11,394 nt of DNA, from NCBI GenBank assembly GCA_025362765.1, contig JANYFI010000055.1, positions 1 to 11,394 on the forward strand, read 5' to 3'. Every line of letters starts with the position of its first letter. Within the stretch, counting starts at the first letter, position 1. This DNA comes from Ferruginibacter sp. Its GTDB lineage: Bacteria > Bacteroidota > Bacteroidia > Chitinophagales > Chitinophagaceae. The notes below the pieces were generated by a model. It saw nothing but the letters and a program-made list of their open reading frames with translations. It did no database searches and was not told the origin of the DNA. Shown one piece after another: positions 1 to 11,394 of this stretch. A program made the position numbers and the translations under genes.

Positions 1-507
1 GGAGATGCAGGTTATTTCGGAAAAGTGCCAGGTGCACATCATGACGGCGGTGCCAGGGACGTCAACGGTAGACCTATTCTTGGAGGAGATGGAGTACAGG
101 TTGTAGGCGGGGCTGGCAATATTGAATATGATCCTAACACCGGTGTAATAAAAAACTATAGCGCACTTAAATTCAGCCCAAATGATTCAACACAAAACTG
201 GATTCAGGACTATGTAAGCAGTTTCTATAACGATCCCCAACACACAATGGTAAATAAAACCTATGCCAAATTGCGGGAACTGGTTATCAGTTACTCCTTG
301 CCTAAAAAGTTTCTTGGAAAGGCGGTAAGTAAAGTAGATATTTCTTTTGTTGGCAGAAACCTGTTGTACTTTTTCCCACAGGCATTTAAAGACATGGATG
401 TTGATCAGTACCCCGGCCGCAACCAGTTCAACAGTATCAGCAGAGAATACGATTTACAAACACCTACAACCAGGAGTTACGGGTTTAACATTAATGTGGT
501 TTTCTAA
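1..507 (+). CDS. SusC/RagA-family TonB-dependent outer-membrane transporter, C-terminal fragment
   Basis: This is the last 168 codons of a gene whose start lies left of the window. The frame is open from base 1, so the GTG at 25 is an internal valine and not a start. The visible part is the end of the beta-barrel. It has the family's usual closing pattern: a 'KLRELVISYSLPKKFL' strand, a 'VGRNLLYF' strand, and a final aromatic-ended strand 'SYGFNINVVF'. SusC proteins import substrates too large for porins across the outer membrane, powered by TonB, and form a complex with a SusD lipoprotein lid. The next gene, 27 bp downstream, is such a SusD partner, so the two are almost certainly co-transcribed. 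The plug domain and any N-terminal carboxypeptidase-like or signalling domain are outside the window. The substrate cannot be read from this fragment. Confidence 0.93.
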   Translation, partial: GDAGYFGKVPGAHHDGGARDVNGRPILGGDGVQVVGGAGNIEYDPNTGVIKNYSALKFSPNDSTQNWIQDYVSSFYNDPQHTMVNKTYAKLRELVISYSLPKKFLGKAVSKVDISFVGRNLLYFFPQAFKDMDVDQYPGRNQFNSISREYDLQTPTTRSYGFNINVVF

Positions 508-534
508 ATATAAACATCATCAAAAACTATTTGT

Positions 535-2145
535 ATGAAATCAGTGAAATATAAAATAATTTTTGCACTTACCGGGCTCGTAATTCTTGTAGGTTGTAGC
601 AAAAAATTCGAAGACTTTTCGAAAAACAAAAATCTTCCACTAGCTGTGCCACCTGGCCTTATATTGAAGGCTGTACTGAAAGATATTGTAGTATATCCGG
701 GTGGATATGAAGATAAAGCAGGCCAGTATATTGCTTCAAATTATACGTATTATGGAGATAATAAATATTGGACCGGAAGTGCGAGTCTTAATTATGGAAC
801 ATTAAATAACATTGTATCCATGGAAGCGCTGGCAAAAAAAGCTTCATCTGGCTCAGATGATAACCCTTATCACGCATTAGGTTTGTTTTTACGTGCATTT
901 CTATTTGTAAATATGAGTGAAAAAGTGGGGGACCTTCCTATGACGGAAGCATTGCAAGGCATTGCTAATAGTACTCCGAAATATGATACACAAAAGGAAA
1001 TATTCATGCAATCATTAAAGTGGCTTGATACAGCTAATACTTTAATGGCAGGTTTTATTCAAAATAAATATCTACAGTCACAAGGGCCTACTTATTTTTC
1101 TGGAGATTTTTACTATTTCGAAAGACTATCTCTTCCTACCACTGGGGGAAATGGTACAGATGCCTTGATACAATGGCAAAAAACCATTAATAGTTATAAA
1201 TTAAGAGTACTCATTGAATTAAGCAAAAAAACCGGCGAAGCAGATCTGAATATAAAAGGTCAGTTTAATGATATCGTTAGCAATCCAACGAAGTATCCCA
1301 TCTTTGGAAGTAACAGCGACAACCTTCAATATGTGTACAACGATAAGTTTAATTACTATCCTGACAATGCAACCAACTATGGTAATAATGCAAGCCGTTT
1401 AAATCTTGGATCTACGTTTTTAAATACCCTTAGTTCTTTAAATGATTTGAGAGCGATGATTTTAGCAGAACCAGCCCGGGGCTTGGGCTTTGGCGATACC
1501 GACTTTAGGTCTTATGCTGGAGCTCCGCTTGGATCAGGTTTAAGTACGCTGGCAACAGAATCTGGTGCTGGCAAGCTGTCCTTATACAATTACAATCACT
1601 ACTATTCCGGCCTTACAGGGGAGCCTACTTTGATAGTAAGCTATGCGGAAGTTTGTTTTAGTATAGCAGAAGCAATTAACAGAGGATGGACAACAGGAAG
1701 CGCCGAAACCTGGTATACCAACGGTGTAAAAGCAATGTTTGATTTTTATGGCATCAAGGATGGCGATAACACAGTAACATTGCGCAAGGCGGACGGAACA
1801 GGGAATCTTGTTTATACAGTTCCATTTAGTTTTACTACCTACTTTAATCAGCCACTTGTAAAGTACAAAGGTGATAATGCAGATGGATTGGATCAGATAA
1901 TAACCCAAAAATACCTGGCCTACTTCCGTAATTCTGGTTTACAGGGCTATTACCTATGGAGAAGAACAGGATTGCCAACATTTGACATAGGTGCTGGAAC
2001 TGGAAACGGAAATAAAATTCCAAGAAGATTTCAATATCCAAATAATGAAATTTCTGTAAACGGAACTAACCTGAGTGCTGCAGTGCAAAGCCAGTTTGGC
2101 GGAGCCGGAGATGATATTAACGAAGATATTTGGCTGGTTAAGTAA
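535..2145 (+). CDS. SusD/RagB-family outer-membrane lipoprotein (SusD-like_2 type)
   Basis: A complete 536-residue protein. It opens with a lipoprotein signal peptide: basic MKSVKYK, a hydrophobic stretch at about residues 8-19, and the lipobox LVGC with Cys21 as the lipidated residue. The mature N-terminus (SKKFEDF, then a short Lys/Asn/Pro-rich linker) and the segment 'HALGLFLRAFLFVNMSEKVGDLPMTEA' at about residues 113-140 are typical of the SusD-like_2 / RagB group, whose helical TPR-like repeats hold a substrate lid over the SusC barrel. The length is normal for the family (about 500-550) and the C-terminus 'INEDIWLVK' looks intact. It follows the SusC gene by 27 bp. The start context is A/T-rich with no Shine-Dalgarno sequence, as usual in Bacteroidota. 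Family members bind glycans, peptides or other ligands. The downstream phosphonate genes suggest a phosphonate- or phosphate-bearing ligand, but this is inference. Confidence 0.94.
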   Translation: MKSVKYKIIFALTGLVILVGCSKKFEDFSKNKNLPLAVPPGLILKAVLKDIVVYPGGYEDKAGQYIASNYTYYGDNKYWTGSASLNYGTLNNIVSMEALAKKASSGSDDNPYHALGLFLRAFLFVNMSEKVGDLPMTEALQGIANSTPKYDTQKEIFMQSLKWLDTANTLMAGFIQNKYLQSQGPTYFSGDFYYFERLSLPTTGGNGTDALIQWQKTINSYKLRVLIELSKKTGEADLNIKGQFNDIVSNPTKYPIFGSNSDNLQYVYNDKFNYYPDNATNYGNNASRLNLGSTFLNTLSSLNDLRAMILAEPARGLGFGDTDFRSYAGAPLGSGLSTLATESGAGKLSLYNYNHYYSGLTGEPTLIVSYAEVCFSIAEAINRGWTTGSAETWYTNGVKAMFDFYGIKDGDNTVTLRKADGTGNLVYTVPFSFTTYFNQPLVKYKGDNADGLDQIITQKYLAYFRNSGLQGYYLWRRTGLPTFDIGAGTGNGNKIPRRFQYPNNEISVNGTNLSAAVQSQFGGAGDDINEDIWLVK

Positions 2146-2194
2146 ATTTGTTTTGTTGTAATAAAAAATATTTTTTTATTTGAGAAGGTAGAAT

Positions 2195-2234
2195 ACGATT
2201 AAGGCGAAACTCAAAGTAGTTTCGCCTTAATCGT
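2195..2234 (+). terminator. Perfect 17-bp hairpin between the SusD and phosphoesterase genes
   Basis: The arm acgattaaggcgaaact (2195-2211) and its exact reverse complement (2218-2234) enclose a 6-base loop, caaagt. GGTA at 2187-2190 can add four more pairs with TACC at 2235-2238 past a 4-base bulge. The hairpin lies 49 bp after the SusD stop and 25 bp before the next start. The following bases are only moderately T-rich (attttaaa), so it is either an imperfect intrinsic terminator or an RNA processing/stability element that sets the ratio of susCD to downstream mRNA. The A/T run just upstream (2161-2180) holds a weak -7-like TATTTTTT at 2169 with TTTG 18 bp before it. A transcript starting there would carry the hairpin in its leader. 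Confidence 0.6.
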
Positions 2235-2259
2235 TACCTAATTTTAAAAAATAACAACC

Positions 2260-5058
2260 ATGTTAACCACGGGAAAAACTTTTTTTTGTTTTGTTACCAC
2301 TTTTTTTATTGCTGCAATTACGCAGGCGCAACAAAAAAAAGCAACCGTACTTTCTGTACCTGGCAGCAGCCAGTTTTGCAAAATAGATCCTGCAGCAACT
2401 TCAGTGTTGCCCAGCGGCCGCTTCCTTACGCCGGCCGGCGAGTTTATCCGCATCACGGATAAACCATTTGGAATGGCACTTTCGCCAGATGGTAAAAAAG
2501 CCGTCACCCTGCACAATGGTGTATTTACTATTATTGATTTAGCTACTTTAAAAGACATCCGCGTTCCCGGATATGAAAATAAAATCAATTCGCCATTGGC
2601 GCACGAACCGTTAAACAGCAGCCCGTTTGGAACTGATTCGGTTTTGCAAAGCGCCATACAAAATGTGTTGCCACAGGGTTCTTTCCTGGGTGTGGCTTTT
2701 GCACCGGATTCAAAAACGGTGTATTTAAGTGGTGGTGACAATGGCGCCGTGATTGTGTATGATATTGAAAAATTACAACGGCTTGATTCCATTTCATTAA
2801 ACGGAACTATCGATGGCGCACAGTTTGGCGAGAGCTTTACCTCCGATCTTTTATTAAATGAAGCCAATCATGAGTTACTGATTTTAGACAGGGGAAATTT
2901 CAGGTTGGTACGCTATGATATTGACGCTAAAAAAATTACCGCCTCTATCCCTTCAGGGCGTCAGCCATTCGGATTGGCATTGAGCGCCGACAAAAAAATG
3001 GCTTTTGTAGCCAATGTGGGCGCCTATGCGTATCCGCTGGTGGAAGGAATGACAAAAGATAATTACAATTCGATGATGATTTCTCATCACCCATATGGAG
3101 ACAATACAAAAGAGTCAATCAATGGTACGGAAACAGAAGGTAAAAAAATTCCGGGGGTTGGTAGTCCGCATTCTCCAGAAGCCATGAGTGTATTTGCCAT
3201 GGACCTTGCCACCAATAAAGTAGTAGATAAATTTAAAACCGGTTTCCAGGTAGGTGAAATGATTGAAGGGGCAGAAGTGGTGGGTGGAGCAAGTCCCAAC
3301 TCTGTTGCGGTAGGAAAACAGTTTGTATATGTAACCAATGCTACCAATGATAACATATCTGTTATTGATTACCGGCAACATAAAATAGTGGGCCGTATTC
3401 AAATAGCCGTTGATAAACGGATTGATCATTACCGTGGATTATTGCCCTTTGGAATTACTTTAAGCAAAGATGAGAAAACACTGTATGTTGCCTTGCTTGG
3501 TTTTAATGCAGTTGCCGTAATTGATGTGGCAACAAAAACTACCAAAGGATTGATACCTACCGGCTGGGGACCGACAAGGGTAAAACTGAGCAATGATGAA
3601 AAAGAAATTTACATTATCAGTTGCCGTGGCCTTGGGGCAGGACCCAATGGTGGCGATGGTTTCGTAACGCCGCCGCAGGGAACTTATATCGGCGATATTC
3701 AGTTGGGCAGTTTTCAAAAAGTAAACATGCCTTCTGCCACTGAACTGGCCGCTTATACCAAACAAACCATCAGCAATACTTTTGTGAGTACAGAAGTTAC
3801 TATTGATAATAATCCCCTGCCTGCATCAACCGGTGCACACCAAAGCCCGATAAAATATATTGTGTACATCACCAAAGAAAACAGAAGTTATGATGAAGTG
3901 ATGGGACAGTTAAAAAATGCCAACGGCGATAGCACGCTTGCCAGGTTTGGCGTAGATTGCGCATACACGTTACCTGATTCGCTGAGGGCAAAATATGCTC
4001 ATTTAAAAGTAACACCCAATCACCACAAAGCTGCCAAACAGTTTTCTTTTAGTGATAATTTTTATTGCGATAGCGATGCTTCTATTCACGGGCATCATTG
4101 GATGATGGGGGTAATACCCAATGAATGGGTTGAGTCCAATTCAAGTGTTGATAAAACAGCAAACTTATTTTCAAAAGCACCAGGCCGCCGCTTCCCAGGC
4201 TCAACAGGAAGTATGGACCCCGAAGATTACGGAGAGATTGGCGGCATGTGGGAAGCAATGGAAAGAAAGCATGTAAATTTTTACAATTTTGGAGAAGCCA
4301 ATGAAACGGCGCATGTACGCGAAGATTGGATGGACACTGCAACGGGTGCGGCCCATGCCGTGATGGTGCCGATGCAAAAAGCATTGTTTACAAGAACCAG
4401 TCATAATTACGCAGGCTTTAACACCAATATTCCAGACCAGTTTCGCATGAACCAGTTTGAAAGCGAGTTTACAAAAATGTGGATTAAAGGAAAGAAGCCA
4501 TTGCCTTCATTAATTACCATGCAGGTGCCTAACGACCATACCGCTGGCGCAAGACCGGAAGATGGTTATTTTTTTCCGCAATCATTTGTGGCGGACAACG
4601 ATTTAGCTGTTGGCAGAATTTTACACTTTTTATCCCGCACCAAATACTGGAAAAATATGCTGGTGATCATTACCGAAGATGATCCGCAGGGTGGGGTTGA
4701 CCATATTGATGCCCACCGTAGTATTCTAATGATGGCTGGTCCTTATGTAAAGAAAGGGTATGTAAGCCATACCCATGCTAATTTTGGAGCCATCTTAAAA
4801 ACCATTTATAATATTTTGGATGTGCCCTATGTGAATCAATATGATGTTACCGCTTCTTTATTACAGGATTTTTTTACCACCAAACCAGATTATACACCAT
4901 ATACTTTGGAGCAACATGATCCCAGGGTTTTTGATGTTGAAAAAGCGATGAAAAAATATGGCCGCTCTGTTGACTGGCGTAAGGTAATGCAAGGTCCGGA
5001 TATGGATGATGAAGATGAGATTCGTAAAAATCATTACAAACAAACCAACGGAAAATAG
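2260..5058 (+). CDS. Exported YncE-like beta-propeller / alkaline phosphatase-superfamily phosphoesterase
   Basis: A 932-residue two-domain protein of the type named 'bifunctional YncE family protein/alkaline phosphatase family protein'. It has a Sec signal peptide (hydrophobic residues 8-20, likely cleavage after A23 in ITQA-QQ), no lipobox and no sorting domain, so a periplasmic location is likely. Residues about 60-460 are beta-propeller blades with the recurring pattern 'PFG.ALS.D.K..FVAN' and 'I.VID....K..G.I', interrupted by a long insert near 265-345. Residues about 530-895 form a PF04185-like phosphoesterase: E540-N541-R542-S543 at the first metal-site motif, D604-S-D-A-S608-I-H-G-H-H613, PNDH around N758-H760, and E806-D807-D808 followed by D814-H815, D817 and H819 as likely metal ligands. 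Relatives include phospholipase C and acid phosphatase AcpA. The context suggests release of a phosphonate or phosphate group from an ester in the periplasm. The true substrate is unknown, and a calcium-dependent phosphatase or phytase-like role is possible. Confidence 0.9.
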   Translation: MLTTGKTFFCFVTTFFIAAITQAQQKKATVLSVPGSSQFCKIDPAATSVLPSGRFLTPAGEFIRITDKPFGMALSPDGKKAVTLHNGVFTIIDLATLKDIRVPGYENKINSPLAHEPLNSSPFGTDSVLQSAIQNVLPQGSFLGVAFAPDSKTVYLSGGDNGAVIVYDIEKLQRLDSISLNGTIDGAQFGESFTSDLLLNEANHELLILDRGNFRLVRYDIDAKKITASIPSGRQPFGLALSADKKMAFVANVGAYAYPLVEGMTKDNYNSMMISHHPYGDNTKESINGTETEGKKIPGVGSPHSPEAMSVFAMDLATNKVVDKFKTGFQVGEMIEGAEVVGGASPNSVAVGKQFVYVTNATNDNISVIDYRQHKIVGRIQIAVDKRIDHYRGLLPFGITLSKDEKTLYVALLGFNAVAVIDVATKTTKGLIPTGWGPTRVKLSNDEKEIYIISCRGLGAGPNGGDGFVTPPQGTYIGDIQLGSFQKVNMPSATELAAYTKQTISNTFVSTEVTIDNNPLPASTGAHQSPIKYIVYITKENRSYDEVMGQLKNANGDSTLARFGVDCAYTLPDSLRAKYAHLKVTPNHHKAAKQFSFSDNFYCDSDASIHGHHWMMGVIPNEWVESNSSVDKTANLFSKAPGRRFPGSTGSMDPEDYGEIGGMWEAMERKHVNFYNFGEANETAHVREDWMDTATGAAHAVMVPMQKALFTRTSHNYAGFNTNIPDQFRMNQFESEFTKMWIKGKKPLPSLITMQVPNDHTAGARPEDGYFFPQSFVADNDLAVGRILHFLSRTKYWKNMLVIITEDDPQGGVDHIDAHRSILMMAGPYVKKGYVSHTHANFGAILKTIYNILDVPYVNQYDVTASLLQDFFTTKPDYTPYTLEQHDPRVFDVEKAMKKYGRSVDWRKVMQGPDMDDEDEIRKNHYKQTNGK

Positions 5059-5213
5059 TTGCATTAATGATGAGTGCGAATGTCAAAATAATTCCATTTC
5101 GTTTGCTGCTTTTTTGCATCAAGGGAAAAAAATACAGGCCCCTTACCAGACAAGGCCTTCGGTTAATGTACTTTATTCTGTAATTTTTAATTTAAACCTT
5201 TAATAAATAAATA
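5059..5213 (+). other. 155-bp spacer before the HAD hydrolase gene
   Basis: No gene is visible here. A short ORF starting inside the end of the preceding gene and running through this gap looks like chance. No exact TAnnTTTG -7 element is present; the nearest is TAATTTTT at 5181-5188, without a well-placed TTTG upstream. AGGCC and GGCCT (about 5135-5157) could form a weak 5-bp stem. The last 50 bases are very A/T-rich, as expected just upstream of a Bacteroidota start codon. Confidence 0.4.
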
Positions 5214-5885
5214 ATGATAAAAATGATTGTTTTTGACATGGCGGGAACCACAGTTGATGAAGACAATGTAGTATATAAAACGCTAAGACAAGTAATCAAT
5301 GATGCGGGCTATAATTTTACTTTGGACCAAGTGCTGGAAGCCGGGGCTGGTAAAGAAAAGCTACAGGCAATCAAAGACATTATTCAATCAGATGCAAAGC
5401 CTCAGGAAAGTAATTTTGCAGAAAATCTGTACAAAGTTTTTGATAAAGCATTAGAGCATGCATACAATAACCTAAATGTAAAACCCCAGCAAGGCGCGGA
5501 AGAATTATTTACATTGTTGCGGCAAAAAAATATATTGGTAGTTTTAAATACCGGCTATAACGAAACCACGGCAAGGCGCCTGCTGAAAAAGTTGCATTGG
5601 GCGGAAGGCGAACAGATTGATGGATTAATCACTGCAACTGACGTGAAAAATAACAGGCCATTACCTGATATGATTCACCTGGCAATGAAAAAGTTTTTGA
5701 TAAGCGATGCAAAAGAAGTTGTGAAGATAGGAGATTCAATTACTGATATTGAAGAAGGTCAGAATGCAGGCTGCGGGTTGAGCATAGGGATAACAACAGG
5801 CGCCCATACCGAAAGTCAATTAAAGTCTGCAAATCCTGATTTTGTTATTAATCATTTAATGGAATTGGTGCCGTTGCTGAATTAA
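5214..5885 (+). CDS. Phosphonatase-like HAD hydrolase (PhnX-related)
   Basis: A complete 223-residue cytoplasmic HAD-superfamily protein. The first motif is D8-M-A-G-T12-T13. Most HAD phosphatases have DxDxT, whereas phosphonoacetaldehyde hydrolase (PhnX) and the PhnX-like family (TIGR03351) have DxAGT, with Ala in place of the general acid. Further family marks are T113 in LNTGY (motif II, compare TTGY in PhnX), R148 in NNRPLPD where ordinary HADs carry lysine, and G-D174-S-I-T-D178 as the Mg-binding motif. In the helical cap, K47 in GAGKEKL aligns by eye with the Schiff-base lysine of PhnX (GLLK, Lys53 in the Bacillus cereus enzyme). The protein is about 40 residues shorter than classical PhnX. 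The expected reaction is phosphonoacetaldehyde to acetaldehyde plus phosphate, using the product of the adjacent PhnW. A related substrate is possible, since the PhnX-like clade is less well characterised. The start gives MIKMIVFD; M4 is an alternative. Confidence 0.88.
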   Translation: MIKMIVFDMAGTTVDEDNVVYKTLRQVINDAGYNFTLDQVLEAGAGKEKLQAIKDIIQSDAKPQESNFAENLYKVFDKALEHAYNNLNVKPQQGAEELFTLLRQKNILVVLNTGYNETTARRLLKKLHWAEGEQIDGLITATDVKNNRPLPDMIHLAMKKFLISDAKEVVKIGDSITDIEEGQNAGCGLSIGITTGAHTESQLKSANPDFVINHLMELVPLLN

Positions 5886-5892
5886 ATAATTC

Positions 5893-5936
5893 CCCTGCTG
5901 GAATAAAATTGCTAAAAGCTGCACAGTCAGGCAGGG
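5893..5936 (+). terminator. Possible weak terminator after the HAD gene
   Basis: CCCTGC at 5893-5898 pairs with GCAGGG at 5931-5936 (one extra T-G wobble inside), leaving a loop of about 30 bases and followed by TTTC. It starts 8 bp after the stop codon. The loop is long and the T run short, so termination is uncertain. The position just before the candidate phnW promoter fits a transcript boundary. Confidence 0.3.
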
Positions 5937-5950
5937 TTTCATATCTCTGA

Positions 5951-5984
5951 TTTGTAAAGTCTTTTAATTCGAAGGCTATTTTTG
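5951..5984 (+). promoter_or_regulatory. Candidate Bacteroidota promoter for phnW
   Basis: TATTTTTG at 5977-5984 matches the Bacteroidota -7 consensus TAnnTTTG exactly. TTTG at 5951-5954 fits the -33 element, with a 22-bp spacer that is slightly longer than the usual 19-21. Transcription would start near 5990, giving a leader of about 60 nt before the phnW start at 6050. This is the best promoter match seen in the gaps of the cluster and suggests that phnW and the FAD oxidoreductase can be transcribed separately from the HAD gene. Confidence 0.5.
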
Positions 5985-6049
5985 TAATTCCACTTTTAAA
6001 AATCAGTGTTGGCATAGCTTTTTACAATTCATTTATCAATAAATTATAC

Positions 6050-7135
6050 ATGCAAAAACTATTATTTACGCCGGGCCCCCTTTCTACTTCTAAAACTGTA
6101 AAAGAAGCCATGTTGCAGGATATGGGCTCAAGGGATCATGCATTTTTATTAGCAGTAAAAGAAATAAGAGATGGATTATTAACACTGGCAGGTGTCTCAA
6201 AAGAACAAGGCTATGAATGCGTAATCGTGCAGGGTTCGGGAACATTTGGGGTAGAAAGCGTGGTGGGCAGTGTGGTTGGTGCAAGTGACACACTGGCGAT
6301 TTTAGTAAATGGCGCTTACGGGGAGCGCATAGTAAAAATGGCAAAAATTAATCGTATTAATCACCTGGTGCACCGGTTTGAGGAAGATGAAATTGTTACT
6401 CCGGAAGCTACCGAAAAATTCCTGGAAGAAAATCCCGCCATTACGCATGTGGCTTGTATCCATAGCGAAACCACTACCGGCCTCTTTAATCCAATTGAAG
6501 CCATCGGCGCGGTTTGTAAAGCACAGAACAAAGTTTTTATTGTAGATGCCATGAGCAGTTTTGGCGGCGTTGAAATGGATATGCAACAGATGCACATTGA
6601 CTTCCTGGTGTCTTCTTCCAATAAATGTATAGAAGGTGTGCCTGGTTTTTCTTTTGCGTTATGTAAAAGAACCGAACTGGAAAAAGCAAAAGGCCAGGGC
6701 AGAAGTTTAAGTCTTGATTTATACGACCAGTGGAATGGATTGGAAAGCAACGGCCAGTTTCGGTTTACGCCACCAACGCTCAGTATCATGGCTTTTCGGC
6801 AGGCAATGAAAGAACTGGAAACAGAAGGCGGCGTTTCGGCAAGGCAGGCACGTTACCAGGCAAACAAAAAACTGCTCGATGAGGGAATGGCCGCACTTGG
6901 GTTCAGGCAATATTTACAACCCGAAATACAGGGCCATATCATCACGTCTTTTTTATATCCTACTCATATCCCTTTTAATTTTGAGCATTTTTATAACCAG
7001 CTCAACGACCGCGGTTTTGTAATTTATCCAGGTAAGCTCAGCAAGGCAGATGCTTTTCGGATCGGCAATATCGGCCAGATTTTTCCGGATGATATTAAGC
7101 GGTTGGTGACTGCGGTAAAGGAAGTGTTACAATAA
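6050..7135 (+). CDS. phnW: 2-aminoethylphosphonate:pyruvate transaminase
   Basis: A 361-residue PLP-dependent fold-type I aminotransferase of class V, close to the usual length of PhnW (about 365-370). It transfers the amino group of 2-aminoethylphosphonate to pyruvate, giving phosphonoacetaldehyde and L-alanine in the cytoplasm. The N-terminus 'LLFTPGPLSTSKTVKEAML' and 'DMGSRDHAF' are hallmark PhnW segments. D166 in IVDAMSSFGG would hold the PLP ring nitrogen, and K192 in SSSNKCIEGVPG is the Schiff-base lysine; both sit two residues before their counterparts in the Salmonella enzyme (Asp168, Lys194). 'QGSGTFGVE' supplies the cofactor phosphate cradle. The gene lies between the phosphonatase-like HAD gene and an FAD oxidoreductase gene, so its product would go straight to C-P bond cleavage. 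A close relative, AepZ, runs the same reaction in the biosynthetic direction, but no phosphonate-synthesis genes (PEP mutase, decarboxylase) are visible, which favours catabolism. Confidence 0.94.
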   Translation: MQKLLFTPGPLSTSKTVKEAMLQDMGSRDHAFLLAVKEIRDGLLTLAGVSKEQGYECVIVQGSGTFGVESVVGSVVGASDTLAILVNGAYGERIVKMAKINRINHLVHRFEEDEIVTPEATEKFLEENPAITHVACIHSETTTGLFNPIEAIGAVCKAQNKVFIVDAMSSFGGVEMDMQQMHIDFLVSSSNKCIEGVPGFSFALCKRTELEKAKGQGRSLSLDLYDQWNGLESNGQFRFTPPTLSIMAFRQAMKELETEGGVSARQARYQANKKLLDEGMAALGFRQYLQPEIQGHIITSFLYPTHIPFNFEHFYNQLNDRGFVIYPGKLSKADAFRIGNIGQIFPDDIKRLVTAVKEVLQ

Positions 7136-7153
7136 TTTTATGCTGAAATTACC

Positions 7154-8389
7154 ATGACCTTCAATATGTCAGAAAGGGCAGATGCAATAGTAATCGGCGG
7201 GGGAATCTTCGGTTGTGCTATAGCATATTATTATACCCGTAACAATCCCGGAAAAAAAATAATCGTATTCGAGCGCAATGAAATTTGCGGAGCCGCTACC
7301 AGCCGTGCGGCGGCGTTGCTTACACGTATCAGGGCGAAGAAAGATTTTATCCCGCTTTCACTGGAAACATATCATGCGATTGCCGAAATGGAAAAACTGT
7401 TGGGTGAAACGCTTGACGTGAAAACGGTTGGTACGCTGCACGTGGCAGCAACCGACACTAGTGTGGCAGAGTTGGAAACGCTGATGGGCATAGCAACTGC
7501 TTTCAACGAACCTGCAACTTACCTGGACCAGGCTGCGGTAAAAGCAAAAGCCCCCTGGTTAAAAATAGAGGAAGTGTTGAAGTGTGGATTTATGCCGCAG
7601 GATGCGTACTGCGATCCCTACCTGCTCGGAACATTCTTTGCCCGCTGCGCAAAAATGCAGGGTGCTGAAATACGGCAAGGTGTAGACGTTGGCAATATTT
7701 TATTGGAGAATGGCAACGCCATTGGTGTTGCAACTTCACAGGGTAATATATACGGCGATGCAGTAGTGATTGCCGCAGGGGCATGGTCGCCGATATTAGC
7801 TATGCGGGCGGGGGTTGGTTTACCAATGGCGCCGGTACGGAGCCAATACTGGATCTCGGAACGAAGTGAAATTTTTCCACCGGCATCTCCCATTGTTATT
7901 TTACCGGATGCACAGGCTTATGCAAGGCCTGAAGGTGGCGGTCTTCTTTTTGGTATTCGTGAATTGCAGTCTTTTGCAACATCACCAGCAAATATTCCAA
8001 ATGATATCAGAGATTTTTCTTTTAGCGGGGATAGAGGCATGAATGACCTTGCCGCCGTAATTGATAAACTCGCCCGCTTTTTTCCTGCTGTGTATGATGT
8101 TGGATTAAAATATTACATCGCCGGTTTTTCCGGTTATACACCTGATAATAATTTAAGCATGGGACCGGTGCAGGGGATTGAGCACTTATTCGCCGCAACG
8201 GGCTGCGTTGGAGCAGGTATTTCAGTGGCAGGTGGTGTAGGAATGGCTTTCGCTGAAATGATTGCGGGCAAACCCAATCCTTACGATTTTACCAATTTCA
8301 ACCTGGAGCGTTTTGGAAAGATAGATGCTTTCAGTAATGCGTGGTTGCAACAGTGCGCTATAGCCAGATCGAGAAAAAGAAGCGGTTAA
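7154..8389 (+). CDS. FAD-dependent amine oxidoreductase (DAO family), likely acting on a phosphonate
   Basis: A 411-residue DAO/glycine-oxidase-type flavoprotein. The N-terminal Rossmann motif is IVIGGGIFGCAIAYY (G15-G-G-I-F-G20), with E40 in VFERNE binding the FAD ribose. 'GAATSRAAALLTRIR' at about residues 46-60 is the second FAD-contact loop, and 'GFSGYTPDNN...AATGCVGAGISVAGGVG' from about residue 324 is the C-terminal FAD-binding closure. No signal peptide is present. The family oxidises secondary or primary amines to an imine, which hydrolyses to an aldehyde or keto compound, with oxygen or another acceptor. FAD oxidoreductases recur in phosphonate clusters (PbfC, PbfD and the TIGR03364 group), where some oxidise N-methyl-AEP or related amines to phosphonoacetaldehyde. 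That is the likely role here because phnW ends 18 bp upstream, which indicates one operon. Substrate and exact subgroup are not settled by the sequence. M5 (7166) is an alternative start. Confidence 0.87.
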   Translation: MTFNMSERADAIVIGGGIFGCAIAYYYTRNNPGKKIIVFERNEICGAATSRAAALLTRIRAKKDFIPLSLETYHAIAEMEKLLGETLDVKTVGTLHVAATDTSVAELETLMGIATAFNEPATYLDQAAVKAKAPWLKIEEVLKCGFMPQDAYCDPYLLGTFFARCAKMQGAEIRQGVDVGNILLENGNAIGVATSQGNIYGDAVVIAAGAWSPILAMRAGVGLPMAPVRSQYWISERSEIFPPASPIVILPDAQAYARPEGGGLLFGIRELQSFATSPANIPNDIRDFSFSGDRGMNDLAAVIDKLARFFPAVYDVGLKYYIAGFSGYTPDNNLSMGPVQGIEHLFAATGCVGAGISVAGGVGMAFAEMIAGKPNPYDFTNFNLERFGKIDAFSNAWLQQCAIARSRKRSG

Positions 8390-8535
8390 CTATTGCTATT
8401 TTGTTGTTGGCAACAATCAAGAGATGGCGAATCATTTAACCTGCTAAATTTTTAGCAATAAAATATTATGGTGTTGTTGGCGAATAACACTAATTTGATA
8501 TCGTGTTCAACTACTAAAATAAAACGAGCTATTTC
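8390..8535 (+). other. Hairpin-rich spacer between the oxidoreductase and transporter genes
   Basis: Three short inverted repeats lie in a row: TTGTTG/CAACAA with loop TTGG (8401-8416); TGCTAAA/TTTAGCA with a 2-base centre (8442-8457), which as DNA is also a near-perfect operator-like palindrome; and GTGTTGTT/AATAACAC with loop GGCG (8471-8490, one G-U pair). No exact TAnnTTTG promoter element is present; TAATTTG at 8491-8497 lacks one base. The first hairpin could end the phnW operon, and the others could be part of a leader or protein-binding site for the transporter gene. This does not match a riboswitch that I recognise. Confidence 0.4.
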
Positions 8536-9858
8536 ATGTACATCTCTGAAACCCTGCAAAATAAAATAAAGAATATGCCCCTTTGGGCATTGTCAATTTA
8601 TGCAGCCGTAAGTGCATTTTGCGTATACTTCTGTATGTATGCTTTTAGAAAACCCTTTACCTCAGCGGGTTTTACGGGAATTGCTTTTTTGGGGATTAGT
8701 TATAAGGTTTGGCTCGTAACCGCCCAGGTTATTGGTTACATGCTCAGTAAATTTTATGGTATAAAATTTATTTCTTCCATGAAAGGAGAAAAAAGAGCCG
8801 GAACAATTATACTGTTGATATTGCTTGCGTGGCTGGCTTTATTGTTATTTGCCGTTACGCCGACACCTTATAATATTATTTTTCTTTTTTTAAATGGCTT
8901 TCCGTTGGGAATGGTTTGGGGGCTGGTATTTAGTTTTTTGGAAGGAAGAAAAACAACTGAATTTATGGGTGCCGTTTTGTCGATTAGTTTTATTTTTTCT
9001 TCCGGCGTAGTAAAAAGTGTGGGAAAGGCAATTGTGATATATTGGCATATAAGTGAAATGTGGATGCCCTTTATTGCAGGGGCGTTTTTTGTGTTGCCCA
9101 TGATTTTATTTACCTGGTTGCTCAATCATATTCCGCCACCAAATGACGAAGACATTTTATTGAGAAGTGTACGAAAACCAATGACAGGCGCGGAAAGAAA
9201 AGCTTTTTTAAACCGCTTTTTGCCAGGTATTTTCGTTATTGTTTTTACCTATGTTTTGCTGACAATCCTACGGGATTTCAGGGATAATTTTTCCAATGAA
9301 TTATGGAAAGAACTCGGCTATGGAAACAATGCGGCGATTTTTACTGAAACGGAAACCTGGGTATCGCTGATTGTGTTATTTTGTATGAGTTTGCTGATAC
9401 TGGTTAAAAACAATATCCGGGCATTTATGATCAATCATTTTATTATTATTGGAGGCTATTCGCTGGCGTTTTTATCCACCATTTTATTTATGGCGCATTA
9501 TATTAACCCGGTAATATGGATGACCATGATTGGTACCGGTTTGTACCTGAGTTATGTTCCATTCAATGCGTTGTATTTTGAAAGAATGATAGCTACTTAT
9601 AAGGTAAAAAGTAATATTGGGTTTATCATGTACGTAGCAGATGCGTTTGGTTATCTGGGCAGTGTGCTGGTGTTATTTTTAAAAGAATTTATCGGTGTTA
9701 AATTATCCTGGACAACCTTTTTTACCAATGCTGTTTTATTCATTTCGGTTACTGGTATTGTTGGTACTTTTATGGCAGCGTTTTATTTTAAAGGAAAATA
9801 TGCTTCAATGCAAAAGCCAGGTGCAGCGCCCGCAGCAATACCCAGTCCTTTACAATGA
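8536..9858 (+). CDS. MFS transporter, DUF5690-like, probable phosphonate/organophosphate carrier
   Basis: A 440-residue integral inner-membrane protein with about 12 hydrophobic helices (approximate starts 17, 50, 88, 111, 143, 175, then 229, 270, 295, 318, 355, 387) and a hydrophilic central loop at about 197-228. This is the 6+6 layout of the major facilitator superfamily. I place it in the DUF5690 family, a Bacteroidota-rich group. TM1 ends in 'YFCMYAFRKPF' (R38), which resembles the Y-x-x-R-K segment of organophosphate:phosphate antiporters such as GlpT and UhpT. TM7 carries 'LLTILRDFRDNF' (R246, R249), at the place of the second substrate-binding arginine of GlpT (Arg269). The context of phosphonate-catabolic enzymes fits import of AEP or a related phosphonate. 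The Ala/Pro-rich C-terminal tail (about residues 425-440) is unremarkable. Function and coupling ion are inferred. An unrelated solute remains possible. Confidence 0.85.
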   Translation: MYISETLQNKIKNMPLWALSIYAAVSAFCVYFCMYAFRKPFTSAGFTGIAFLGISYKVWLVTAQVIGYMLSKFYGIKFISSMKGEKRAGTIILLILLAWLALLLFAVTPTPYNIIFLFLNGFPLGMVWGLVFSFLEGRKTTEFMGAVLSISFIFSSGVVKSVGKAIVIYWHISEMWMPFIAGAFFVLPMILFTWLLNHIPPPNDEDILLRSVRKPMTGAERKAFLNRFLPGIFVIVFTYVLLTILRDFRDNFSNELWKELGYGNNAAIFTETETWVSLIVLFCMSLLILVKNNIRAFMINHFIIIGGYSLAFLSTILFMAHYINPVIWMTMIGTGLYLSYVPFNALYFERMIATYKVKSNIGFIMYVADAFGYLGSVLVLFLKEFIGVKLSWTTFFTNAVLFISVTGIVGTFMAAFYFKGKYASMQKPGAAPAAIPSPLQ

Positions 9859-10077: not shown

Positions 10078-11394
10078 CTACTCTTTTATAAATACAGTAT
10101 GTTCAGTTGCAGATACTCTTTTCAGCAGCAAAGTGTATAATCCTTTGGGCAATGCGTTAATGTCTATTGAAAAACCCGTAACGCTATTGAGTACCACTTG
10201 TTGTTCAATTAGTTTTTTACCAGTAATGTCTGTTATTTGTATGGTGGCTTTTTCAGCGTTGCCGGTAGCCTGTACATGCAACATATTTTTTGCCGGATTA
10301 GGAAATGCCAGCAAATGCTTGTCAATAGTTGTTTTTATTGCCAACACTTTACTGTAGCTGTATTTTCCATTGATATCAACCATTTTCAAACGATAATAGG
10401 TAAACGGTTTATTAATTGTTAAATCTGTGTAAGAATAATTTTTAATAACGTTGCTGTTACCGGCAGCATCAAGTTTTGCAATGGACCTGAAGGTAGCGCC
10501 TCCGTCATCACTTCTTTCAACATAAAATAAGGCAGTGTTTTGTTCTAAACTTGTTTGCCAGTCAAGCAGTACCCCTTGTCTTTGCCTGGTAGCGGTAAAA
10601 TTTAACAGGCTTACCGGCAGTACAATGTTTGTTGAACTGACTGAAAATGGGGAGAAAGACAGGACGCCACTTCGCGTAAACGTATATGGGCCGGTTCCTG
10701 ATGCTGTGCCTGTCTGTCCGGGATCCCAAAACCCGCCGACATAGTGGTTAAGAAAAATATGCGTTCTGTCAAACAAAGAGAGTTCGTCAGCCGCATTCCA
10801 TTGCAAAGTTATATTTGCGTTGGAAGCGCCAGGTGTTTGTTCCTGTATGTACCAGGTTTTATTTACAACTCCCTGTGTTATCGCGTTGCCGGTACTGCCG
10901 TTGATCAGTACCTTGTCCTTAACATTAATACCAAAATAATCATACACTCCTGTATTGGTGATGGTCACCGGAGTAAACGAAGTCGCTTTGCCTGATTGAA
11001 CAGGGAAGCTAACCGGAGATGCCCCTACCGGCATAAAAAAACTTCCTGAACTATCAGTAATTATTCTGGGAACCCGTAGATCAAATGCGTCAACCTGCAA
11101 ATTATAAGGCCCAAGATAAATTGAGTCTGCTCCTTCTACCCTTAGATGTTGTACTGTAAAATTAGAAGATAACTGCGTGTTTAAACCACCCGAAATAGTT
11201 AGTTGTCCAGTATAGCTGCCAGCTCCTCCAATAGTGTGTGGTATTGTGCCGGCGCCACTTGAAGTAATGGCGAAAACTCCATTACTGGCATTGTTAATAA
11301 TCCCAGTATTATAAAAGTTGCCATTTACAAAAACCAAACCTGTTCCCACATTAATAGTACTTCCATTGTTGGTAAGGTTGTTGCAAAAAAGAGA
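10078..11394 (-). CDS. T9SS-secreted surface protein with type A sorting domain, N-terminus beyond window
   Basis: The minus-strand frame is open to the right edge, so the start lies outside; the GTG at 11349 is an internal codon. At least 438 residues are visible. The first half is Gly/Asn/Thr-rich and beta-structured ('GNFYNTGIINNASNG', 'GAGSYTGQLTISGG'), like passenger regions of large Bacteroidota surface proteins. Then comes a common module, 'PVSLLNFTATRQRQGVLLDWQT...FYVERSDDG...YYRLKMVDINGKYSYSKV', which often precedes a sorting domain. The last 80 or so residues (about 10081-10317) are a T9SS type A C-terminal domain: 'FPNPAKNMLHV', 'ITDITGKKL', 'IDINALPKGLYTLLL', 'VFIKE'. Such proteins cross the outer membrane through the type IX system and are anchored or released after the domain is cut off. 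No catalytic domain is visible. It converges on the phosphonate cluster and is probably independent of it. Confidence 0.9.
   Translation of the reverse strand, partial: SLFCNNLTNNGSTINVGTGLVFVNGNFYNTGIINNASNGVFAITSSGAGTIPHTIGGAGSYTGQLTISGGLNTQLSSNFTVQHLRVEGADSIYLGPYNLQVDAFDLRVPRIITDSSGSFFMPVGASPVSFPVQSGKATSFTPVTITNTGVYDYFGINVKDKVLINGSTGNAITQGVVNKTWYIQEQTPGASNANITLQWNAADELSLFDRTHIFLNHYVGGFWDPGQTGTASGTGPYTFTRSGVLSFSPFSVSSTNIVLPVSLLNFTATRQRQGVLLDWQTSLEQNTALFYVERSDDGGATFRSIAKLDAAGNSNVIKNYSYTDLTINKPFTYYRLKMVDINGKYSYSKVLAIKTTIDKHLLAFPNPAKNMLHVQATGNAEKATIQITDITGKKLIEQQVVLNSVTGFSIDINALPKGLYTLLLKRVSATEHTVFIKE

Follow-up and report, generated by a model that had tools for sequence, protein, structure and literature searches.

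The 11,394-nucleotide contig JANYFI010000055.1 from Ferruginibacter sp. (assembly GCA_025362765.1) probably carries genes for aminophosphonate utilisation arranged around a SusCD-type outer-membrane importer. The window under study is this entire 11.4-kb contig (G000:C748) of a genome that is 69 % complete and spread over 852 contigs; named close homologues of its proteins include those of Ferruginibacter and other Chitinophagaceae. The initial annotation had listed a SusC/SusD pair, an exported phosphoesterase, a HAD hydrolase, PhnW, a flavin adenine dinucleotide (FAD) enzyme and a transporter, all on one strand. Profile matches recover each of these genes, all on the + strand between positions 1 and 9858, and the annotation was right about their association and probably about the pathway. 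On a wider scale, there is roughly an even chance that a modular locus dedicated to phosphonates exists in Bacteroidota from more than one order. It would combine an exported esterase and a SusCD lineage for ester-bound aminophosphonates (phosphonolipids or phosphonoglycans) with interchangeable cassettes for cleavage of the carbon-phosphorus (C-P) bond, and DUF5690 would act as aminophosphonate:phosphate antiporter.

In the proposed pathway, SusD and SusC would carry an ester-bound aminophosphonate (a phosphonolipid head group, a phosphonoglycan or similar) across the outer membrane. Release of 2-aminoethylphosphonate (AEP) or N-methyl-AEP in the periplasm would fall to the exported PF04185 esterase, which relatives supplement or replace with a PF01663-type enzyme. 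DUF5690, a putative major facilitator superfamily (MFS) transporter of the organophosphate:phosphate antiporter type, would then import the aminophosphonate to the cytoplasm and may release phosphate in return. There, PhnW would turn AEP, and a PbfC-like enzyme N-methyl-AEP, into phosphonoacetaldehyde. Both enzymes would feed this common intermediate, which a PhnX-like hydrolase would split into acetaldehyde and phosphate, breaking the C-P bond. Synteny supports the view that SusCD and the esterase belong to the same pathway as the phosphonate enzymes; we infer a bulky or ester-bound ligand, ester cleavage, regulation and antiport.

The SusD-type surface lipoprotein (535..2145, + strand) matches PF12771 with 195 bits (cut-off 27) and PF12741 with 105 bits. 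Its lipobox cysteine C21, judged by eye, is invariant in 30 of 30 aligned rows. Directly upstream lies the C-terminal 168-amino-acid part of a SusC/RagA-type TonB-dependent outer-membrane channel (1..507, +), whose gene the contig enters midway: the TIGR04056 match of 49 bits falls at profile positions 895-981 of 981, and the full-length cut-off of 368 is out of reach for such a fragment. Relatives were sought in two overlapping samples of 149 and 296 genomes, the latter covering the phylum with at most four SusD candidates scored per genome; "beside" means within 5 kb in the former and, for phylum loci, anywhere in the retrieved sequence, which extends up to 6.3 kb. Genes of relatives come from a simple open reading frame picker, which makes starts and gaps approximate; it missed the PhnX-like gene in L118, L128 and L091 and an HD oxygenase in L114, which tblastn recovered. 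Locus labels are best BLAST matches, with the window or a cluster member as reference, and weak "PDE663" labels (25-34 %) were not relied on. PhnX-like proteins were counted from 174 bits upward, mostly below the curated cut-off of 218.9.

Among the 149 genomes, 26 SusD matches were found at E 1e-25. Eight of the 12 that score at least 250 bits lie within 5 kb of a PhnX-like, PhnW or DUF5690 gene, against only two of the 14 weaker ones. The phylum sample adds seven genomes with a SusD of at least 230 bits, and five of the seven stretches hold PhnX-like, DUF5690 or PbfA; the remaining two (G326:C14 and G241:C4) hold an HD oxygenase and the same esterase as the window (61 % and 74 %). Taken together and with the window included, 13 of 19 SusDs of at least 230 bits are beside PhnX-like, PhnW, PbfA or DUF5690, a number that rises to 15 once the phosphonate-type HD oxygenase is counted; tblastn on the DNA leaves both counts unchanged. 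The three weaker matches of the phylum sample comprise one beside a PF01663-type esterase (G420) and two beside nothing relevant (G326:C33 and G150). A SusC homologue precedes SusD in linked loci. In a tree of 29 SusD sequences, the window falls in a clade of 11 rows (support 96/94), 10 of which are linked to phosphonate-type genes. The linked label changes four times on this tree, compared to a mean of 9.8 after shuffling, and linkage must therefore have arisen or been lost elsewhere too. The adjacency of SusCD and esterase to phosphonate genes, noted initially in this genome, is thus found in others as well, and the reading withstands the first of the two refuting conditions set for it at the outset.

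The strongest sign of what the importer carries comes from gene order. The importer genes recur next to aminophosphonate enzymes that differ between loci, from which we infer that the SusCD ligand carries an aminophosphonate. Four cassettes are joined to SusDs of the window clade: PhnW, PbfC-like and PhnX-like in the window; PhnWYA and PbfC-like in L103; PbfA and PhnX-like in L088; and HD oxygenase and PhnX-like in G095 and others. The G095 run reads SusC, SusD, PF04185 esterase, PF01663-type esterase, HD oxygenase, PhnX-like, DUF5690 and HpnW-type FAD enzyme, with successive gaps of 35, 12, 5, 5, 4, 2 and -8 bp; G125 and G130 also have tight runs. In L088 the order is SusC-SusD-PF04185 esterase-DUF5690-HpnW-PbfA-PhnX-like, with PbfA at 690 bits (cut-off 525), and L200 is another variant with PbfA. 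L103 reads SusC-SusD-PF01663-type esterase-HD oxygenase-PhnA-PhnY-PhnW-FAD-DUF5690 (PhnA 496 bits, PhnY 665 bits, the FAD enzyme PbfC-like). The HD oxygenase cluster exceeds the TIGR03276 cut-off in L113 and L105 and stays narrowly below it in L131 and L085. Loci differ in part content; the G385 stretch, for instance, is without DUF5690. In L113, L131, L109 and L127, a TIGR03276-type HD oxygenase occurs together with a PhnX-like protein and an HpnW-type FAD enzyme, without PhnW, which places two potential C-P cleaving enzymes in each run. L109 has in addition a TonB-dependent receptor (5483-7552; PF00593/PF07715) between SusD and the HD oxygenase, and a receptor 50 % identical to it lies beside two esterase copies in L173 (2265-4313).

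The cytoplasmic enzymes of the aminophosphonate pathway are well supported by sequence comparison. PhnW, the AEP:pyruvate transaminase (6050..7135, +), scores 487.0 bits against TIGR02326 (cut-off 400.8) and matches the solved chains 9kk8 (E 1e-114) and 1m32 (E 1e-111). It is above cut-off in 13 of the 149 genomes, where nine of 14 copies, counting a truncated one in G082, are within 5 kb of PhnX-like or DUF5690. The HAD protein (5214..5885, +), proposed as phosphonoacetaldehyde hydrolase, classifies as PhnX-like (TIGR03351, 233.3 bits; cut-off 218.9) but not as true PhnX, with 112.4 bits against TIGR01422 (cut-off 220), and was not filed as such. In an alignment with 2iof, its D8, K49, D174 and D178 align with D12, K53, D186 and D190 of PhnX, of which D12 is the Asp nucleophile and K53 the Schiff-base Lys; the solved chain 2ioh carries Arg at the K53 position. 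Conservation of all four residues throughout the 40 rows, the window's among them, makes it likely that the enzyme retains Schiff-base chemistry.

The third enzyme, a PbfC-like FAD oxidoreductase (7154..8389, +; PF01266, 195 bits), is a proposed N-methyl-AEP oxidase. Over its full length it is 43 % identical to an enzyme encoded on plasmid pAB510a of Azospirillum sp. B510, the next listed plasmid match being at 31 %. The pAB510a gene sits between a phnX-type gene (25 % to the window HAD) and a pbfA-type gene, near phnW. According to the accessible text of PMC10590968, PbfC of Azospirillum sp. B510 was assayed and converts N-methyl-AEP to phosphonoacetaldehyde; the plasmid enzyme, whose record is unannotated, is presumably this PbfC. 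The window enzyme lies in an AEP-gene context, and its putative PbfC kinship is drawn from the 43 % match. HpnW was rejected as an identity (TIGR03364, 48.7 bits; cut-off 285.1), as was TIGR03329 (31.3 bits; cut-off 632.8). Close copies (E 1e-40) are present in only two of the 149 genomes, both adjoining PhnW, and the protein database holds 588 homologues at E 1e-20. With PhnW above its cut-off, the PhnX residues kept and an FAD enzyme resembling that of the Azospirillum cluster, the aminophosphonate pathway read from the genes at the outset is corroborated.

The exported esterase (2260..5058, +) is a 932-amino-acid protein in which a beta-propeller, recognised by propeller matches, is joined to a PF04185 phosphoesterase part (37.1 bits, cut-off 23). 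Its N-terminus resembles a signal peptide, and export was judged by eye. Residues E540, N541, S608, D759, H760, D807, D808 and H815, of a kind presumably catalytic in the PF04185 family, are invariant across all 14 aligned rows, the window's being one of them. The esterase adjoins SusCD and PhnX-like/DUF5690 in G095 and L088, and SusCD and an HD oxygenase in G326:C14 and G241:C4; of seven orthologues above 700 bits in the 149 genomes, four are by SusD. It occurs often without being obligatory, and the PF01663-type enzyme can take its place or accompany it. Profile support for this second type is modest: the four linked copies scanned reach 26-39 bits (cut-off 23), and the second esterase of G020 falls short of that cut-off.

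The last gene of the locus encodes a DUF5690 membrane protein (8536..9858, +; PF18943, 562 bits). Its match to MFS_1 is below cut-off, its predicted fold is that of an MFS protein, and the first structural match of this fold is the human glucose-6-phosphate transporter SLC37A4, in line with the organophosphate-type transporter suggested initially. Among the 149 genomes, 31 have both DUF5690 and a PhnX-like protein, eight have one only and 110 neither; G119 contains a phnA-phnY-DUF5690-phnW run. On the basis of synteny and predicted fold, we propose that DUF5690 may be the aminophosphonate importer, of the phosphate-antiporter type. Seven PhnX-like loci (L087, L089, L090, L093, L096, L097 and L098) have a GlpT/PgtP-like MFS protein and an HpnZ-type dehydrogenase. 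Because four of these seven stretches are without DUF5690, the two transporters may substitute for each other. In L119, L121, L123 and L129, DUF5690 of family f21 lies beside a PHP-like protein (identified by eye), away from phosphonate genes, and the same genomes hold PhnW and PhnX-like elsewhere. In a search of open-licence PubMed Central, no paper named DUF5690, and no function for it was found.

Several observations weigh against this interpretation of the locus. No phosphonate gene, PbfA included, lies in the stretches retrieved around four of the 19 close SusDs (G020, G101:C8, G105:C70 and G107). The G020 protein adjoins a PF01663-type esterase and two permeases, that of G105:C70 (L169) a tyrosine-phosphatase-like protein and that of G107:C1 (L170) a phospholipase C and an endo/exonuclease-phosphatase; the last two are possibly other organic-phosphorus SusCD systems. 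Given these four, the SusD lineage may have a wider role in organic-phosphorus use. Only three of the seven esterase orthologues are by phosphonate genes, and two (G088:C4 and G132:C73) are near neither these nor SusD. Of the 34 genomes counted as PhnX-like, only seven exceed the curated TIGR03351 cut-off. DUF5690 lies apart from PhnX-like in eight of the 31 genomes having both, and occurs without PhnX-like or known phosphonate neighbours in G060, G081 and G144. Finally, profile comparisons of DUF5690 gave no match to solved chains or to GlpT-like MFS proteins.

A broader role could go as far as a general organic-phosphorus importer (PUS), in which SusCD and the esterase handle phosphodiesters (lipid head groups or nucleic acid, for example) and the phosphonate genes, serving a further phosphorus source, merely share their location or regulation. 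We regard this as unlikely, although it is in line with PusCD systems that are induced by phosphate depletion in Flavobacterium (accessible text of PMC8115612), with the phosphatases or phospholipase C beside the unlinked close SusDs of G105 and G107, and with G144:C2 and G125:C15, where a more distant SusD and the esterase occur in a stretch without a phosphonate gene. However, 10 of the 11 SusDs of the window clade are linked to phosphonate-type genes, what varies between loci are alternative aminophosphonate cassettes, and the G095 genes are separated by 2-35 bp with one overlap. It is still less probable that SusCD imports free, small aminophosphonates directly while the esterases act on other things. 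In L127 and L194 SusD is indeed followed by the HD oxygenase with neither esterase between, and several loci of the window's set are without the PF04185 enzyme; but in 13 of 18 SusD-bearing loci, window included, the gene that follows SusD encodes one of the two esterase types (leaving aside a weak 34 % label in L200), and to our knowledge the SusCD systems characterised to date carry larger ligands. That the end of an ordinary glycan polysaccharide utilisation locus lies beside a phosphonate operon by chance is very improbable and was rejected: Bacteroidota hold many SusCD pairs, the contig starts inside SusC with the upstream genes outside the window and a hairpin parts susD from the esterase gene, but 13 of 19 linked SusDs give a binomial tail of 5e-20 at an assumed chance of 0.015 and 2e-13 at 0.05 (kinship ignored), and in the gene runs compared, SusD and the phosphonate genes are separated only by esterases, one TonB-dependent receptor (L109) and one 436-amino-acid protein (L112).

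The aminophosphonate locus also needs to be set against known systems. SusCD pairs for organic phosphorus ("PusCD") were published for Flavobacterium by Lidbury et al. 2020; in the accessible text (PMC8115612), such SusCD-like pairs occur alongside genes for periplasmic phospho(di)esterases and for inner-membrane organic-phosphorus transporters, and one sentence names phosphonate-degrading enzymes among the neighbours. The window has the same gene arrangement, SusCD beside a predicted exported phosphoesterase (export by eye). PusD1 and PusD2 carry PF07980/PF14322, whereas the window SusD has PF12771/PF12741, a comparison that covers two of the six PusD forms in the accessible text, the other four of which fall in three subclades (PMC8115612). 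The window neighbours, in contrast, form a complete aminophosphonate pathway plus DUF5690. The initial annotation had called a SusCD pair for phosphonates a new use of that import system. Because PusCD is published, SusCD for organic phosphorus is no longer new; what would be new here is a SusCD lineage tied to the aminophosphonate pathway. No such lineage with a complete pathway was found in open-licence PubMed Central, a scope that covers the main text of PMC8115612 and not its figures and supplements, where the phosphonate neighbours are drawn.

The PhnWX, PhnWYA and Pbf clusters, as described in the accessible text of PMC10590968 and PMC12366243, share with the window PhnW, the PbfC-like FAD enzyme and a PhnX-type hydrolase, and with its relatives PbfA and PhnY/PhnA. 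These papers already describe PbfC from the FCB group, phnY-phnA from Bacteroidetes and the pairing of pbfA with phnX outside Proteobacteria. The window differs in having the TIGR03351 PhnX-like protein, not TIGR01422 PhnX, and in the SusCD, exported esterase and DUF5690 genes next to these enzymes; neither SusC nor TonB is mentioned in the main text of PMC12366243. For the transporter, AepP of Pseudomonas putida, a GlpT-related AEP permease, is a precedent as an MFS importer of the organophosphate:phosphate antiporter type (PMC8316502, accessible text). DUF5690 is a separate Pfam family tied to it via the predicted fold, and the AEP transporters described in that text act on the free compound. 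A SusC/D pair of Maribacter forsetii (P177_RS04595/04600) resembles the window in its neighbours, which are described as an alkaline phosphatase, a phosphonatase-like hydrolase and an FAD oxidoreductase. It was the highest pair on laminarin, also expressed on glucose, in comparison with a limited casamino-acid control, and its authors read it as a laminarin importer (PMC11345257, accessible text). By analogy, it may be a phosphonate-type locus taken for a laminarin importer, or else a sign that pairs of this kind do respond to glycans, a caution for the aminophosphonate reading.

Within the window, the genes from SusC through DUF5690 are separated by 27, 114, 155, 164, 18 and 146 bp. The interval between susD and the esterase gene contains a 17-bp perfect hairpin (2195..2234, +); it folds with -35.4 kcal/mol over 2146-2259 (z -6.5), an energy that none of 200 shuffles equals. 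No long T-run follows immediately 3' of the hairpin, which is possibly an attenuator or processing site. It cannot exist in full in G095 or L088, because the same junction measures only 12 and 36 bp there. Given the gap sizes and the hairpin, co-transcription of the window genes is left at plausible. A search for known structured RNA in the window gave no Rfam match at the gathering threshold. A protein sorted by the type IX secretion system (10078-11394, - strand; TIGR04183 35.6 bits, PF18962 45 bits) is truncated by the contig end and was excluded from the locus.

If this interpretation is correct, one SusCD lineage of Bacteroidota would be dedicated to C-P ligands, and DUF5690 would gain a function. 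Phosphonolipids and phosphonoglycans are stores of reduced phosphorus, and a SusCD route would explain the access of Bacteroidota to the bound phosphonate pool. It would also call for caution, in that not every induced SusCD pair should be read as a glycan importer.

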